A stretch of DNA of 36,975 nt. Origin: Microcaldota archaeon. GTDB lineage: Archaea; Micrarchaeota; Micrarchaeia; CABMEP01. The stretch covers positions 1 through 36,975 of the forward strand of contig JAOAKO010000001.1 of assembly GCA_026413625.1 (NCBI GenBank), given 5' to 3'. Both the position numbers and the translations under genes were made by a program. The notes below the pieces were generated by a model. It saw only the letters and a list, made by a program, of their open reading frames with translations, did not search any database and was not told the DNA's origin. Of the stretch, positions 31,889-36,975 are shown one piece after another; the first letter of the stretch is position 1, and each line of letters begins with the position of its first letter.

Positions 31889-32011
31889 TTCTCATTTAAC
31901 CAGTTTCATGAGCAGCAGATATAAATACAATCTCATCGCCACATTAAGTCTCTTCAAAAGTAAATGCAGATTCATATAGTATAGTTAACATCCTTCTACT
32001 TTTTGCTCTCT

Positions 32012-32095
32012 GGCTGAAGAACCTTACATCCTTCTTTTCTGCATCAGACAGCATGAATGCGACCATAGAACGCAATCCTGCTTCACCTTCAAAGA
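32012..32095 (-). pseudogene. Fossil of a TrmB-type regulator gene
   Basis: This stretch is nearly identical to 34741-34825, an internal part of the intact TrmB-type gene at 34439-35167. Read leftward it encodes GEAGLRSMVAFMLSDAEKKDVRFFS; the intact copy has FLLSDAEKKDVWRFFS, so one Trp codon is gone and Leu became Met. Directly before it (32096 on) comes the sequence that in the intact copy lies upstream of the gene, so about 350 bases, including the DNA-binding half, are deleted. The remainder of 31889-32011 is AT-rich and I see no gene in it. Confidence 0.75.
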
Positions 32096-32153
32096 AGAGA
32101 TGTATTAAACTTTTTAATTGTTTTGTTTACTCTCCAAATTTGGACAGTTAATA
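32096..32153. repeat. Copy 1 of duplicated TrmB-type promoter/operator
   Basis: About 58 bases match 35172-35234 almost base for base, including ATTAAACTTTTTAATTGTTT and the palindrome TCCAAATTTGGA at 32133-32144, then ACAGTTAATATT. Downstream, TATTTATATATTT (about 32152-32164) is a TATA candidate for the gene at 32217. Confidence 0.8.
32133..32144. promoter_or_regulatory. Palindrome TCCAAATTTGGA, putative operator (copy 1)
   Basis: A perfect 12-base palindrome shared with 35211-35222, upstream of the rightward gene at 32217 and of the fossil regulator. The same site next to the intact TrmB-type gene suggests that this regulator controls both. Confidence 0.55.
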
Positions 32154-32216
32154 TTTATATATTTCACAAAAGTAGGATAGTTAGAAAAATATAAATATAA
32201 GGTTGAGGTGAGTTTG

Positions 32217-32813
32217 GTGGAAAATGCATTTAAGAAATATAATAAAATGACGGATTCAAAACGTAGAGATAATCTGATAGAACATATTAATAAGGGGGTG
32301 TACGGTATGGAATCTTTCCATAATAAAGGGCGTCAAGAAGGTAAAAAAAAGGTGAATGTAAATAAGAGAATGGGTGATCCGAAATCAGAACAGATCTATA
32401 GCAGTTTTAAGAAAACTGTGGAACAAGAGATGAAGAAATGTATCGAGGAGCACAAACACTGTCATCCAGAATACGCAGAAACATGTATTATCGCTTCAAA
32501 AATAGATGAAAAAAATGGAATTGCAGCTTGGGTTTTGTTCGAACAAATAGATACGGACAGAAATGCAAAACGTTATGAGTCGAGTGGTTGGCTAGGTGAT
32601 CAATATAGATATTCTCTTTGGGTAATGAAAAATGGTTCAAAACCTAAGCAAATATATTCAGAAAATGCACGGATAAGATCAGAGATCAACAACATGACAG
32701 GTACGCGGGGAAGGGACTGTTCAATAGATTTTATCAAACTTACTGAAAGGGTATTTTACTATCAATTTATTATTTACGATACCCGCATAATCTACGCAGA
32801 CATATTCATTTGA
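32217..32813 (+). CDS. Unknown protein under a TrmB-type operator
   Basis: I do not recognise this 198-residue protein. The first 95 residues are helical and rich in Lys/Glu (KRRDNLIEHINKGVYGMESF; KKTVEQEMKKCIEEHKHCHPE). The second half looks beta-rich: ETCIIASKIDEKNGIAAWVLFEQ, YRYSLWVMKNGSKPKQIYSE, DCSIDFIKLTERVFYYQF. That half resembles the product of the leftward frame at 32721-33137. Start: GTG at 32217 follows GAGGTGA with the same layout as the HD gene (GAGGTGA...GTGGAA at 35273); the longer GTG start at 32208 is too near its ribosome site. Its 3' end overlaps the leftward frame by 93 bases. Confidence 0.7.
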   Translation: MENAFKKYNKMTDSKRRDNLIEHINKGVYGMESFHNKGRQEGKKKVNVNKRMGDPKSEQIYSSFKKTVEQEMKKCIEEHKHCHPEYAETCIIASKIDEKNGIAAWVLFEQIDTDRNAKRYESSGWLGDQYRYSLWVMKNGSKPKQIYSENARIRSEINNMTGTRGRDCSIDFIKLTERVFYYQFIIYDTRIIYADIFI

Positions 32814-33137
32814 TGGGCCTGTGAATATCTTTTCCACAGTTATTTTATTATTTTCATTTTTCTTTACAAGATATAGTATATCAAAACCATAGTCTGTTCC
32901 ATTTTCACACGACCATACTATTACTGCAATTTTGTTTTTCAAGACCTTACAAAAACTTATATAGTCATAGCCTAATGTTGGTGCAATTTCAGTGACTTTG
33001 TTTTTTGCTTGATCTTCGAATTCTTGAGGCTCTTTTATATTGCCATTGAAAGTAATAAGCACTTTCTTCTTAGAATATTTTCCTCCTTCAACATCTTTTG
33101 GTGTAATTTTAACAATTGGACCCGCACTACGGGTCAA
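32721..33137 (-). CDS. Unknown protein, apparently 5'-truncated paralogue of the 32217 gene
   Basis: A 138-codon leftward frame with no ATG and no ribosome site; the only in-frame starts I see are a TTG at 33137 and unsupported alternatives. It ends right at the upstream edge of the two-receiver gene. Its sequence (LGYDYISFCKVLKNKIAVIVWSCENG, YGFDILYLVKKNENNKITVEKIF, EYVCVDYAGIVNNKLIVKYPF) follows the order of strands of the second half of the 32217 protein. I read it as a C-terminal fragment of a paralogue that has lost its N-terminal half, perhaps non-functional. Confidence 0.45.
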   Translation of the reverse strand: MTRSAGPIVKITPKDVEGGKYSKKKVLITFNGNIKEPQEFEDQAKNKVTEIAPTLGYDYISFCKVLKNKIAVIVWSCENGTDYGFDILYLVKKNENNKITVEKIFTGPSNEYVCVDYAGIVNNKLIVKYPFSKFDKIY

Positions 33138-33169
33138 AATAGTGATGTGTACGAAGAGAGGGTGGTAGA

Positions 33170-34177
33170 ATGAAACATCAAGCCAAAAAAGAAAATAAAA
33201 AAATTAAAAAAGAATATGTTCCTAAGAGCAGTCCAAAGATTGATTCAATTGTAGATAAATACAAAGGCCTTCAAAGTTCCTTCTCTATTGCAATATCTAA
33301 ATTTGATCCAAAGAAAAATAAAGTACTTGTTGTAGAGGATTTTGAAGATTACCAAAATTTGTTAAAAGGAATTTTTAGCGATAAAGAAGTAATAATTGCT
33401 GATAATTTTGAAAGTGCAAAGCAAATAATAGACAAAGAGGGTGAAACATTATCAGGCGTTGTGACTGATATTCAATATCCAAGAACATCGGAAAATTATC
33501 GTGGAGAAGAACCTTGTGGGCTTGAGCTATTTAAATATATAAAGGAAAAATATCCTAAAATGCAAGTCATCGTGAATTCATCACGTCAACAAAGATTGAA
33601 GGAAGCAAAAAGCATCGGCGCCGATCTGGTATTCCATAAGAAAACGATATTTTTAGAATATTTAAGGAAAAGGATGGAAAAATCAAAAATGCAAGAAAAG
33701 AAAGAGAGGTATAATGTATTACTCGTTGTAAATGAAGATAAAAAATTCGATATAAATTCGACTGGGAATTATTTAAAATTGATTAAATACGCACTAGAAG
33801 AAAGTAAAAAGAAGATTAATATTGACCATTGTACATATGAAAGTGCGTTAGAAAAATTTGACCCTGACATATATACCCATATAGTTATTGTGGCCATTCT
33901 TCAGGATGATACATTGGAGAAGTTATCACAATTTAATGATGAAGGCAGAGGATTAGAGGACTATGAGGCGGTTCCATTCCATCATGGTAGACGTATGGTT
34001 TTTGGTAGCCTAGCTGCAAAAACTCTTTATGAGACTTTAGAAAAAGATCCGGATGGAAAAACTAAAATAATCTTTATCACATATGAGAAACTGCCGAATG
34101 AGGAGGAGTATCCAGGAATTACTTTCTTAAAGTGGCCTCTAATGATTGAAGATTTTAGAAAAGCGTTTGTTGACTAA
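33170..34177 (+). CDS. Two-receiver (CheY-like) protein, second domain degenerate
   Basis: A 335-residue protein. After a Lys-rich tail (1-45), residues about 50-168 are a receiver domain with all key residues: Glu56-Asp57, phospho-acceptor Asp100 (VVTDIQYP), Ser137/138 (VNSS) and Lys157/158 (VFHKK). Residues about 181-333 repeat the fold (YNVLLVVNED; HIVIVAILQDD; IIFITYEKLPN; FLKWPL), but the acceptor position after the third strand is not an Asp in the usual place, and the domain has an insertion. No DNA-binding or enzymatic output domain is present. GGTGGTAGA precedes the ATG. No histidine kinase is in the window, so it might be an orphan or a phosphate shuttle. Confidence 0.85.
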   Translation: MKHQAKKENKKIKKEYVPKSSPKIDSIVDKYKGLQSSFSIAISKFDPKKNKVLVVEDFEDYQNLLKGIFSDKEVIIADNFESAKQIIDKEGETLSGVVTDIQYPRTSENYRGEEPCGLELFKYIKEKYPKMQVIVNSSRQQRLKEAKSIGADLVFHKKTIFLEYLRKRMEKSKMQEKKERYNVLLVVNEDKKFDINSTGNYLKLIKYALEESKKKINIDHCTYESALEKFDPDIYTHIVIVAILQDDTLEKLSQFNDEGRGLEDYEAVPFHHGRRMVFGSLAAKTLYETLEKDPDGKTKIIFITYEKLPNEEEYPGITFLKWPLMIEDFRKAFVD

Positions 34178-34262
34178 ATTTTAATTTTATTTTTTTATGT
34201 AAAAGCCAAAATCAACTAATAATATATATGAGAAACTGATAAGAATCTTAAAAGCCGGAAGA

Positions 34263-34376
34263 ATGGAAGGGCTTTATGTATTCAACCCTGGTTTAAGCGC
34301 AAGTTTAAATTATGGACTACTAACAATTGAAGGAGACGGATACATATTTGAATCAAAGGTACTCAAGAATGAATAA
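34263..34376 (+). CDS. Possible short or broken ORF
   Basis: Thirty-seven codons beginning MEGLYVFNPGLSASLNYGLL. The frame is open further upstream to a stop at 34200, with protein-like sequence (KLIRILKAGRMEGLYVF) but no start codon or ribosome site there. It may be a remnant of a lost gene. The rest of 34178-34438 is AT-rich, including a T-run near 34190. Confidence 0.25.
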   Translation: MEGLYVFNPGLSASLNYGLLTIEGDGYIFESKVLKNE

Positions 34377-34438
34377 AGATGAATTGAACAGATAGCTATA
34401 TAGAAATATAGATTATAATAATGATCTGTTCTATTTTT

Positions 34439-35167
34439 TTATTTTTCAGCCCTTTCCCACATCCAATCGAAAAAGTCAGCGAATTTATTTGCTATATCTT
34501 TAGACTGAATCACAAATCCGGCTTCCTCTTTCGGTGAAATAATTCCAATTTTGTCCCGAAATATTAAAATATTCGGGGGCAGTTTCTCAAGGAATCTATG
34601 TTCAGTAATTTTAGAAGGAGAAATCTTTCCCTTCAGTTGAATAGGTAAGATTCCTTTCCCTTTTATTTTCTTAAGCTCCCTAATACGTTTTGAACGTACA
34701 TATACTTTTTCAATCATTTCTTTATATTCCTCTTCTTGAGGGCTGAAGAACCTCCATACATCCTTCTTTTCTGCATCAGACAGCAGGAATGCGACCATAG
34801 AACGCAATCCTGCTTCACCTTTAAACAAAAAGATTTCAGATTTGCGCCCCTCTTCTGTTTTTATAAACTCAGAGATTTTTTCAATAATCTTTATCTCCAT
34901 TTGTAAAAGCTCTTTTAATTCTTCTAGCGACACTGCGGAATAGTGTTTTATTTTATTCTTTTCAACATATTTGACAAACCCTCTCTTGATTAAGGAATTG
35001 ATTGTATTGTAGAATGAAGAGCTTCCTATGTTGAGAGAGCTCATTATTTCTTCTGCCTTGGATACTGGATGCCGGATCAAATAAATCAAGATATTGGCCT
35101 CACAATCAGACAGTCCGATTCTCTTTAACAGCTTATTTAATTCAGCAATTGCCACTTTTTCGTCCAT
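34439..35167 (-). CDS. TrmB-family transcription regulator
   Basis: A 242-residue regulator. Residues 1-85 form the TrmB winged helix: LNKLLKRIGLSDCEANILIYLIRHPVSKAEEIMSSLNIGSSSFYNTINSLIKRGFVKYVEKNKIKHY. A helical linker (about 85-110) leads to a C-terminal sensor-like domain (FLFKGEAGLRSMVAFLLSD to the end). In archaea such proteins often sense sugars or other small molecules and regulate nearby genes. A 12-base palindrome lies upstream between it and the divergent HD gene; a second copy lies at 32133. A fossil of a second TrmB-type gene is at 32012. The ATG lies close to the duplicated sequence (35172-35234). Confidence 0.88.
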   Translation of the reverse strand: MDEKVAIAELNKLLKRIGLSDCEANILIYLIRHPVSKAEEIMSSLNIGSSSFYNTINSLIKRGFVKYVEKNKIKHYSAVSLEELKELLQMEIKIIEKISEFIKTEEGRKSEIFLFKGEAGLRSMVAFLLSDAEKKDVWRFFSPQEEEYKEMIEKVYVRSKRIRELKKIKGKGILPIQLKGKISPSKITEHRFLEKLPPNILIFRDKIGIISPKEEAGFVIQSKDIANKFADFFDWMWERAEK

Positions 35168-35171
35168 ATGT

Positions 35172-35234
35172 AGAGATATGCATTAAACTTTTTAATTGTT
35201 TTGTTTACTCTCCAAATTTGGACAGTTAATATTA
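35172..35234. repeat. Copy 2 of duplicated TrmB-type promoter/operator
   Basis: Matches 32096-32153 almost completely. It lies between the leftward TrmB-type gene and the rightward HD gene, and contains TCCAAATTTGGA at 35211-35222. Confidence 0.8.
35211..35222. promoter_or_regulatory. Palindrome TCCAAATTTGGA, putative operator (copy 2)
   Basis: Twelve-base perfect palindrome about 45 bases upstream of the TrmB-type ATG and 50 upstream of the HD gene start, so it could regulate both. TATA-like AATATTATTATTTATTAAA follows at about 35228-35246 for the HD gene. Confidence 0.55.
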
Positions 35235-35272
35235 TTATTTATTAAATCTGCGCTATAATTAGAGGTGATTAG

Positions 35273-36001
35273 GTGGAAGAAATGAGGAAATTTAATTATG
35301 AAAAAAAGGAGAAAGTGAAAACATTCTCCAAAGAACTGGCTGTAGAGCCGATGATCGAAAGCAATATTGGTAAAAAAAGAATTATGATAAAAGAGCTATT
35401 GAATTTACCTCAAATACAGGCTGGCAAAGATTTATGGCAAAATCCTTTTCATGAATTTGATGTTTTCACACATACTACCAAATTTGTAGAATTTATTGAA
35501 AAGATGACAGATGATTTAGACGTGATCGCAGCCGGTTGCCTACATGACATAGGCAAACCAGTTGTTGCAAAGCCAAAATACAAAGATAACGTCTTACAAG
35601 AAAAGGAACCCGGAAAGCCATATCATGAATTTGATGACCATGAAAAGGTTGGAGAGGAAATTGTTCGAAAATTACCGCCATCAATTTTTGAAAAATACGG
35701 TCTTAATCAAGAAAAAATCGCTATATTGGTTGGGGCCCATTATTTGCCGATGAAAGGGATTAAAGCAATGAGGGCCGCTAAGGATTACAAAGAGTTCGAA
35801 ACTGCCTATCAGAATCTTGTGGAAAAGTTGGAAAAAACAGGATATAAAAATGAAGTTTTAACAATGTTTGTCGCAGATAAACTCGCCCAAGGGAAAGGCT
35901 GCACAGATAGAGAGGAATTAATGGCGATCTGGAATTTACTCGTCAACAATATAGGAAACTTAGAAAGCATTTACAAAATTCAGAGAAATATTAATGAATA
36001 A
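35273..36001 (+). CDS. HD-domain phosphohydrolase
   Basis: A 242-residue HD-superfamily metal-dependent phosphohydrolase, like the HD domain of tRNA nucleotidyltransferase-associated proteins. Ligands: His67 in DVFTHTTKF, His91-Asp92 in CLHDIGKP, His123 in DDHEKVGEEI, His156 in GAHYLPM and Asp202 in FVADKLAQG. Helical throughout. Possible substrates are nucleotides or cyclic phosphates; none can be inferred. Starts at a GTG after GAGGTGATTAG (an in-frame ATG follows three codons later). Promoter contains the TrmB-type palindrome, so it is likely regulated by the divergent regulator. Confidence 0.87.
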   Translation: MEEMRKFNYEKKEKVKTFSKELAVEPMIESNIGKKRIMIKELLNLPQIQAGKDLWQNPFHEFDVFTHTTKFVEFIEKMTDDLDVIAAGCLHDIGKPVVAKPKYKDNVLQEKEPGKPYHEFDDHEKVGEEIVRKLPPSIFEKYGLNQEKIAILVGAHYLPMKGIKAMRAAKDYKEFETAYQNLVEKLEKTGYKNEVLTMFVADKLAQGKGCTDREELMAIWNLLVNNIGNLESIYKIQRNINE

Positions 36002-36042
36002 ATCGTTTTCAATGTTAATCAAATGAAAAAATTAGTGACTTT

Positions 36043-36734
36043 ATGGAGGCACAGCAAAAATGGCCAAATTTAATAGTTTTTGTTAGGCAGGGAGAATCAG
36101 TTTTTAATTTCGAAAAATGAAGATTGAGTAATTTAATTTAGACAAATTGAGAATCGATCCACCTATAAGCGATATGGATATAGAACTCACTACAGATGGT
36201 AGAAAACAAGCATATGTCACTGGAAAGAATCTAAAAAAATTTGGGAAGTTTGACATCATGTTTGTTTCACCGTATATTAGATGTAGGCAAACCGCTGAAG
36301 AGTTAATTAAAGGAATGGATTATAAGCCGAAATTAGTAATTGAAGAGAGGATTAGAGAGAGGGAAAGAGGTGCGATTAAGATGCTGACAAAGAAAGGAAT
36401 ACAGACCTTTTATCCCCAAGAATGGGAAAGATTATCAATGGAGGGTAAATACTATTATCGTCCTTTAGGTGGCGAAAACTATCCAGACGTTGGATTAAGG
36501 TTGCATAGTTTTCTTGGAACATTGGTAAGGGATTATCCAAAGAAAAAAGTGTTAATTGTAACCCATTCTGTTGTGATAATGATGTTTAGGAAATTATTAG
36601 AACGTTTAGAAGAAAAAGATATTCTAGAGATCGATGCAAATGACGCTGTCAAAAATGCAAGTATTACAGTTTATAAATTTGATAAAAAAGAGAGACATCT
36701 TAAGCTGAAGGCGTATAATCGAATTTTTTATTAG
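36043..36734 (+). pseudogene. Broken histidine phosphatase (phosphoglycerate-mutase family)
   Basis: The N-terminal part (36043-36120) encodes PNLIVFVRQGESVFNFEK and stops. The usual catalytic RHGES is RQGES, so the nucleophilic His is lost. The rest resumes in another frame from about 36147: DMDIELTTDGRKQAYVTGKNLKKF, then SPYIRCRQTAEELI (the conserved arginine region), RERERGAIKM and VLIVTHSVVIMMF with the second His. Between them are stops in frame, so more than one lesion is likely. The downstream part alone (195 codons from TTG 36147) would lack a catalytic nucleophile. Confidence 0.65.
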
Positions 36735-36896
36735 TTTTATTCTCATTCATTTTATTAAATCTTAATTTTGTTTAAAAGGTTTAACGCTCTTTAATCAAAA
36801 TCATTGGAAATTCAGTTCAATAACTATTAAATATCTCTTTTTCATATTATATTTTAGATTAATTTTTCATTTGCTATTGATTTAAAGTGGATTATT

Positions 36897-36975
36897 ATGT
36901 CTCATTTAATAATAAAGAAATTCGGTTCCTTGACGGAGGTTCAGAAGCAGGCGATTCCTCTAGTGCAACAAGGAA
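36897..36975 (+). CDS. Partial helicase (DEAD/DEAH, Lhr-like), 5' end
   Basis: The last 79 bases encode MSHLIIKKFGSLTEVQKQAIPLVQQG and run off the window. FGSLTEVQKQAIPLV matches a superfamily 2 helicase Q-motif. GTGGATTATT precedes the ATG. The 36735-36896 gap is AT-rich, with several TATA-like stretches and no gene that I can see. Naming the subfamily needs the rest. Confidence 0.6.
   Translation, partial: MSHLIIKKFGSLTEVQKQAIPLVQQG

Follow-up and report, generated by a model that had tools for sequence, protein, structure and literature searches.

The TrmB operator of Pyrococcus furiosus and Thermococcus litoralis, TACT-N3-AGTA, is located at the malE BRE/TATA region, and the Pyrococcus TrmB palindrome overlaps BRE/TATA and mediates repression (PMC4158304). 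Other members of the family use different palindromes: the operator of TrmBL1/Tgr, termed TGM, reads TATCAC-N5-GTGATA, and that of Halobacterium TrmB reads TACT-N7/8-GAGTA. Both of these regulators control large metabolic regulons, and autoregulation has been proposed for Tgr. TrmBL2 of Pyrococcus furiosus (PDB 5BQT, 5BOX) is an abundant chromatin-associated protein (PMC4877046). Experimentally defined operators are few in uncultured small-genome archaea, and a short literature search returned none for the archaeal group considered here.

The locus described below lies in a window of 36,975 bases, the first part of an 86,556-base contig from a 484-kb assembly that is 54% complete; the genomes of the nearest relatives measure about 1 Mb. 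These relatives, together with a deoxyhypusine synthase gene in the window, make an archaeal host very probable. The window harbors a TrmB-type regulator that shares with P. furiosus and T. litoralis TrmB the winged helix and, as judged from sequence and conservation only, a palindromic operator at the BRE/TATA region. It differs from them in half-site and spacing (CTCTCC-N6-GGAGAG); the window site fits neither TACT-N3-AGTA nor TATCAC-N5-GTGATA. As in TrmBL1/Tgr and Halobacterium TrmB, the predicted operator is palindromic. Unlike these two, which serve large regulons, the window regulator and its operator-bearing relatives were found with a single strict operator in each genome, located in the promoter of the regulator gene itself; the duplicate in the window is the exception. 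Features are collected in Table 1. Two class-wide sets were used, comprising 296 genomes for the P4 and P5 homologue search and 301 for the operator DNA-pattern search.

Table 1. Coordinates of features discussed in the text (positions within the window)
Feature	Position	Strand	Remark
Lineage-specific island, RNase T-like exonuclease gene to Lhr-type helicase gene	31889..36898	.	
TrmB gene remnant (residues about 114-142)	32012..32096	-	93% DNA identity to 34741-34828, within the TrmB gene; 345-bp deletion
Duplicated TrmB promoter, directly upstream of ORF P4	32096..32163	.	93% identity to 35174-35243
Predicted operator copy 1 (ACTCTCCAAATTTGGACAGT), then TATA-like TTTATATAT at P4 promoter	32129..32148	.	
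P4, orphan protein, 198 aa, probable captured target	32217..32813	+	
P5, orphan ORF, 138 aa, doubtful gene	32721..33137	-	Without operator
Receiver protein	33170..34177	+	Response-regulator receiver domain at residues 52-158 (Pfam PF00072), the only one detectable; without operator
TrmB-family regulator, wHTH and C-terminal domain, 242 aa	34439..35167	-	PF01978, E 1.5e-12
Predicted operator copy 2, bidirectional TrmB/HD promoter	35207..35226	.	Motif conserved upstream of TrmB homologues, six families
HD-domain hydrolase, divergent gene, predicted direct target	35273..36001	+	PF01966

The Regulator and Its Predicted Operator

The winged-helix domain of the regulator scores 47.6 bits against PF01978, above the Pfam cut-off of 25.6, and the protein encoded at 34439-35167 is the sole intact match to the window TrmB in the assembly. 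A profile built from this protein and nine relatives matches TrmBL2 (5BQT; E 4.8e-9) along its full length, C-terminal domain included, as well as the DNA-binding part of TrmB (3QPH); the C-terminus of the window protein matches TrmBL2. The group is unlike TrmBL2 in that a specific predicted operator is conserved. In contrast to the sugar-responsive TrmB proteins, the window regulator falls below the cut-offs of the sugar-sensing equivalogs NF040851 (22.7 vs 600 bits) and NF047390 (24.6 vs 650 bits), and the surrounding island does not contain a sugar transporter gene. The effector-binding domain PF11495 is matched neither in the window TrmB nor in four relatives.

The original prediction singled out a 12-base palindrome, TCCAAATTTGGA, as the site of this regulator. 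The element is real, but it spans 20-26 bp: its AAATTT centre is mostly A/T spacer, and the conserved part is the half-site CTCTCC. In its 26-nt extension it has 11 matching pairs out of 13 and is the top-scoring palindrome of this length in the window; the chance of finding an equally good one in the 105-nt intergenic region is about 0.003. The full motif reads RCTCTCC-W6-GGANAGY, with CTCTCC-N6-GGAGAG as the constant core, and the window site is ACTCTCC-N6-GGACAGT. The same motif occurs just upstream of TrmB homologues that share only 22-28% identity and come from six families within the archaeal class of the window genome, exemplified by GCTCTCCAATTTTGGAAAGT (G116), ACTCTCCATTTTTGGAGAGT (G136), ACTCTCCAGTATTGGAAAGT (G086), and GCTCTCCAATTAAGGAGAGT (G037); variant sites are found in G131, G117, G033, and G070. 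The palindrome is thus very probably the operator of the adjacent regulator, as originally proposed; retention of motif and regulator together across six families supports this prediction.

Exact CTCC-N6-GGAG is present in 12 of 107 TrmB upstream regions, whereas each other spacing from 2 to 12 yields 0-2 occurrences and control four-letter half-sites of equal G+C average 0.36. When up to one mismatch is allowed in CTCTCC, seven occurrences are recovered at a spacing of 6 vs 0-1 at other spacings. In a blind test, RCTCTCCN6GGANAGY was searched in the 301 class genomes. Seven sites have an all-A/T spacer, namely two in the window and those of G116, G136, G037, G156, and G165; six are located just upstream of intact TrmB-family genes, and the seventh, the left site of the window, resides on a TrmB remnant. 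The TrmB genes of G156 and G165 were located from the DNA pattern alone, as the TrmB protein search set did not include these genomes. Among sites with other spacers, only 1 of 25 is linked to TrmB (G086), and with any spacer the pattern is not commoner than its reversed control across the 301 genomes. Most such matches are therefore attributable to chance, and specificity rests on the A/T spacer and the position. The fact that the motif predicted TrmB genes blind in two genomes makes this a directly testable regulator-operator pair, in which a compact motif links recognition helix and DNA site.

The regulator proteins carry a corresponding signal. On a tree of 105 TrmB homologues, the operator label requires 3 changes vs 10.6 when shuffled (none of 500 shufflings was as low) and is concentrated mainly in two branches; the window TrmB sits on a long branch, and its tree position is uncertain. 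The recognition-helix signature SSx[VF][YH][NGH], which was written post hoc, is found in 10 of 11 operator-bearing TrmB proteins and in 0 of 94 others; the window helix reads SSSFYN. Some TrmB genes of the same wider clade have other palindromes or none. Different inverted repeats, e.g., TTATTCCTCCCCAGGGGGAGTAATA, are also seen 15-55 nt from the starts of genes in other TrmB branches of the class (L018:1317; L019, L020, L033, L113), suggesting that self-operators may be common in the TrmB expansion, each branch employing its own half-site. G001 and G002 have neither the operator pattern nor a significant match to the window TrmB. A viral origin of the operator was considered and rejected: four viral contigs carry CTCTCCAAATTTGGANAG, none with a TrmB relative on the stretch examined, and one of these sites resembles a terminator hairpin. 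A TrmB protein pattern search in the genome contigs gave no match.

A Second Site Left by Duplication of the Regulator Gene

The 484-kb, 54%-complete assembly contains two copies of TCCAAATTTGGA, one at 32133-32144 and one at 35211-35222, and no third. A genome-wide regulon was rejected on the basis of these two exact sites; additional operator sites could lie in the missing parts of the genome. The original prediction also described about 58 flanking bases repeated along with the palindrome. This repeat exists (32096-32153 and 35174-35231: 58 nt, ungapped, two mismatches, with an identical run of 50 nt) and is part of a larger duplication comprising a promoter block, which includes the identical run, and a coding block within the TrmB gene (Table 1). 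Compared with the intact gene, the left copy has lost 345 bp (codons 1-113), and with them its start codon and the entire DNA-binding domain, while 29 TrmB codons and the promoter are retained; past codon 142, nothing recognisable as TrmB is left. What remains on this side is thus a dead regulator gene. The second site consequently arose by duplication of the regulator gene, as had been suggested, and did not originate as an independent target. Because of their shared descent, the two palindromes count as one observation, and independent convergence of two sites was rejected since the left one belongs to the TrmB remnant. The claim of two divergent promoters holds for the right-hand site, the only working divergent pair; at the left site, the gene across from P4 is the dead remnant. 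Preservation of the promoter half of the duplicate, with its unchanged 50-nt run, could be due to chance (P = 0.09) and is not by itself significant as a sign of selection.

A Predicted Regulator-Operator Pair with Changing Targets

In the window as in the related genomes, the operator is located in, or right at, the intergenic stretch that separates TrmB from a divergent gene. Towards the target, a TATA-like A/T element lies about 0-7 nt away, and the regulator side often has such an element as well. The divergent gene varies. It encodes a radical-SAM protein in G037, G131, G117, G033, and G070. G116 and G156 have a 529-534-aa protein of no known family at this place, which in G136 is the second gene in line; the remaining loci have a methyltransferase (G086), a 231-aa protein (G165), and, in the window, the HD hydrolase. 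Altogether, the window and ten loci from six families present one operator between regulator and divergent gene with five target types: the regulator-operator pair is conserved, and the target gene is not. The radical-SAM arrangement (L171, L173, L174, L175, L176) recurs in five genomes from two families, and in four of the five a cytidylate-kinase-like gene comes next, forming an uncharacterised regulated pair.

The best reading of these loci is a local cassette of regulator and operator with swappable targets, which in the window has gained a second target through duplication and loss of the regulator copy. More generally, and as a tentative proposal to which we give a little less than an even chance, this TrmB subfamily of small-genome archaea may constitute a portable unit of one regulator, one self-operator, and a bidirectional promoter that has been coupled anew to unrelated targets in different lineages. 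The window would record how the unit grows: after its duplication, one regulator gene was lost, and the operator that stayed behind took over a second gene. The remnant would then provide a concrete case of a one-site regulator acquiring a target through a second copy of its gene whose coding portion disappeared, without a new site having to evolve from scratch.

Predicted Mode of Regulation

In the model that we consider likely, a TrmB dimer would bind the operator in the promoter region from which the regulator gene and the HD hydrolase gene diverge. Since the operator abuts the TATA-like boxes, the bound dimer should keep TFB/TBP away and hold the two genes repressed, a state that would end once a ligand of the C-terminal domain frees the operator. 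Judging from Pyrococcus TrmB, the two divergent genes are most likely repressed. Duplication of the TrmB gene with its promoter, followed by loss of the start codon, DNA-binding domain, and 3′ part of the copied regulator, probably handed the switch to P4, whose expression would be driven by the surviving operator-promoter, making it the second predicted target.

The main rival retains the same operator and duplication but has the regulator activate by recruiting TBP or TFB both to the target gene and to the gene that encodes it. It is the main rival because the TATA-like boxes have the operator upstream of them, the side on which known TrmB-type activators bind relative to BRE/TATA (PMC4158304). 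Yet a distance of about 0-7 nt places the operator over the TFB-recognition position, in agreement with occlusion of the kind described for Pyrococcus TrmB at malE; activation is rated unlikely. That the palindrome acts as a terminator, attenuator, or other RNA structure would agree with its being a good inverted repeat but is scarcely credible, given that it is positioned upstream of the TATA-like boxes, where transcription is not expected, that its half-site sequence and 6-nt spacing are conserved beyond what pairing alone would demand, and that no Rfam match was found.

A further alternative concerns the left site alone, which may be a mere fossil, leaving a single functional site and P4 as neither a real nor a regulated gene. 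P4 is an orphan whose last about 90 bp overlap P5 on the opposite strand, the unchanged promoter sequence is not significant, and other parts of the island look decayed, e.g., a phosphatase ORF that starts after the usual catalytic motif; P4 may not be a functional gene. On the other hand, the TATA-like box on the P4 side, TTTATATAT, is better than that on the HD side, and the start of P4 is preceded by a Shine-Dalgarno-like GAGGTGA and followed by an open frame of 198 codons. The fossil interpretation is rated possible though somewhat doubtful, and capture of the duplicated operator-promoter by P4 is the preferred reading.

A Conserved System of Neighboring Genes Is Improbable

TrmB, the HD hydrolase, a receiver protein, and P4 had been proposed to constitute one regulated module. 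The genes are adjacent and reside on one island, which speaks for a coherent four-gene signalling system. Against it, the archaeal class essentially lacks the HD protein; the two good homologues, from a Woesearchaeota MAG (49% identity) and a Patescibacteria MAG (48% identity), have no TrmB gene next to them and are surrounded by ribosomal-protein, primase, translation-factor, and metabolic genes. The operator is found at the promoters of TrmB, HD, and P4 only, leaving the receiver protein and P5 without one. Within the class, the receiver protein has weak receiver-domain matches only, P4 and P5 lack homologues in the 296 genomes, and no place was found where homologues of these genes cluster, the very outcome named in the original prediction as speaking against it. 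A four-gene system is thus considered highly improbable. HD-family proteins are by default phosphohydrolases acting on nucleotides or other phosphate esters. As to the receiver protein, announced as a two-receiver protein, the first domain was detected and a second is not detectable; no domain was recognised in its second half.

P4 matches no Pfam or NCBIfam family, gives only insignificant PHROGs matches (E >= 0.017), and has no homologue in viral contigs, where relatives of the HD and receiver proteins were likewise not found. Its single-sequence structure model (pLDDT 58) has no significant fold match. P5 is convergent with P4, and the gap to the receiver gene leaves it scarcely any space for a promoter of its own. 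P4 and P5 display a broadly similar order of hydrophobic stretches; a paralogous relationship was rejected, BLASTP being negative.

The Island

The island measures 5.0 kb, is missing from the two nearest genomes, and has a G+C content of 32.6% vs 39.7% in the flank. In G001 (L057), a member of the same genus, the exonuclease and Lhr-type helicase genes are about 38 bp apart, and they are also adjacent in G002 (L058), from the same family; the window helicase downstream of the island is intact. An insertion in the lineage of the window is the simplest reading, and two losses are possible. Targeting of a tRNA by the island was rejected, as no tRNA is encoded in the surrounding 19 kb. The helicase frame of G002 is broken shortly after its start (L058:7061-7333), near the position of the island junction; insertions may be frequent at this site, or the assembly may be broken there. 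The histidine-phosphatase ORF at 36050-36734 begins its Pfam match at profile position 20; upstream and in another frame, VRQGESVFNFEK followed by a stop is found where the family usually has RHGE, so that the ORF appears to be a decayed gene that lacks the catalytic histidine. A short open frame (34263-34376; MEGLYVFNPGLSASLNYGLLTIEGDGYIFESKVLKNE), flanked by the receiver and TrmB genes, represents a possible gene remnant.
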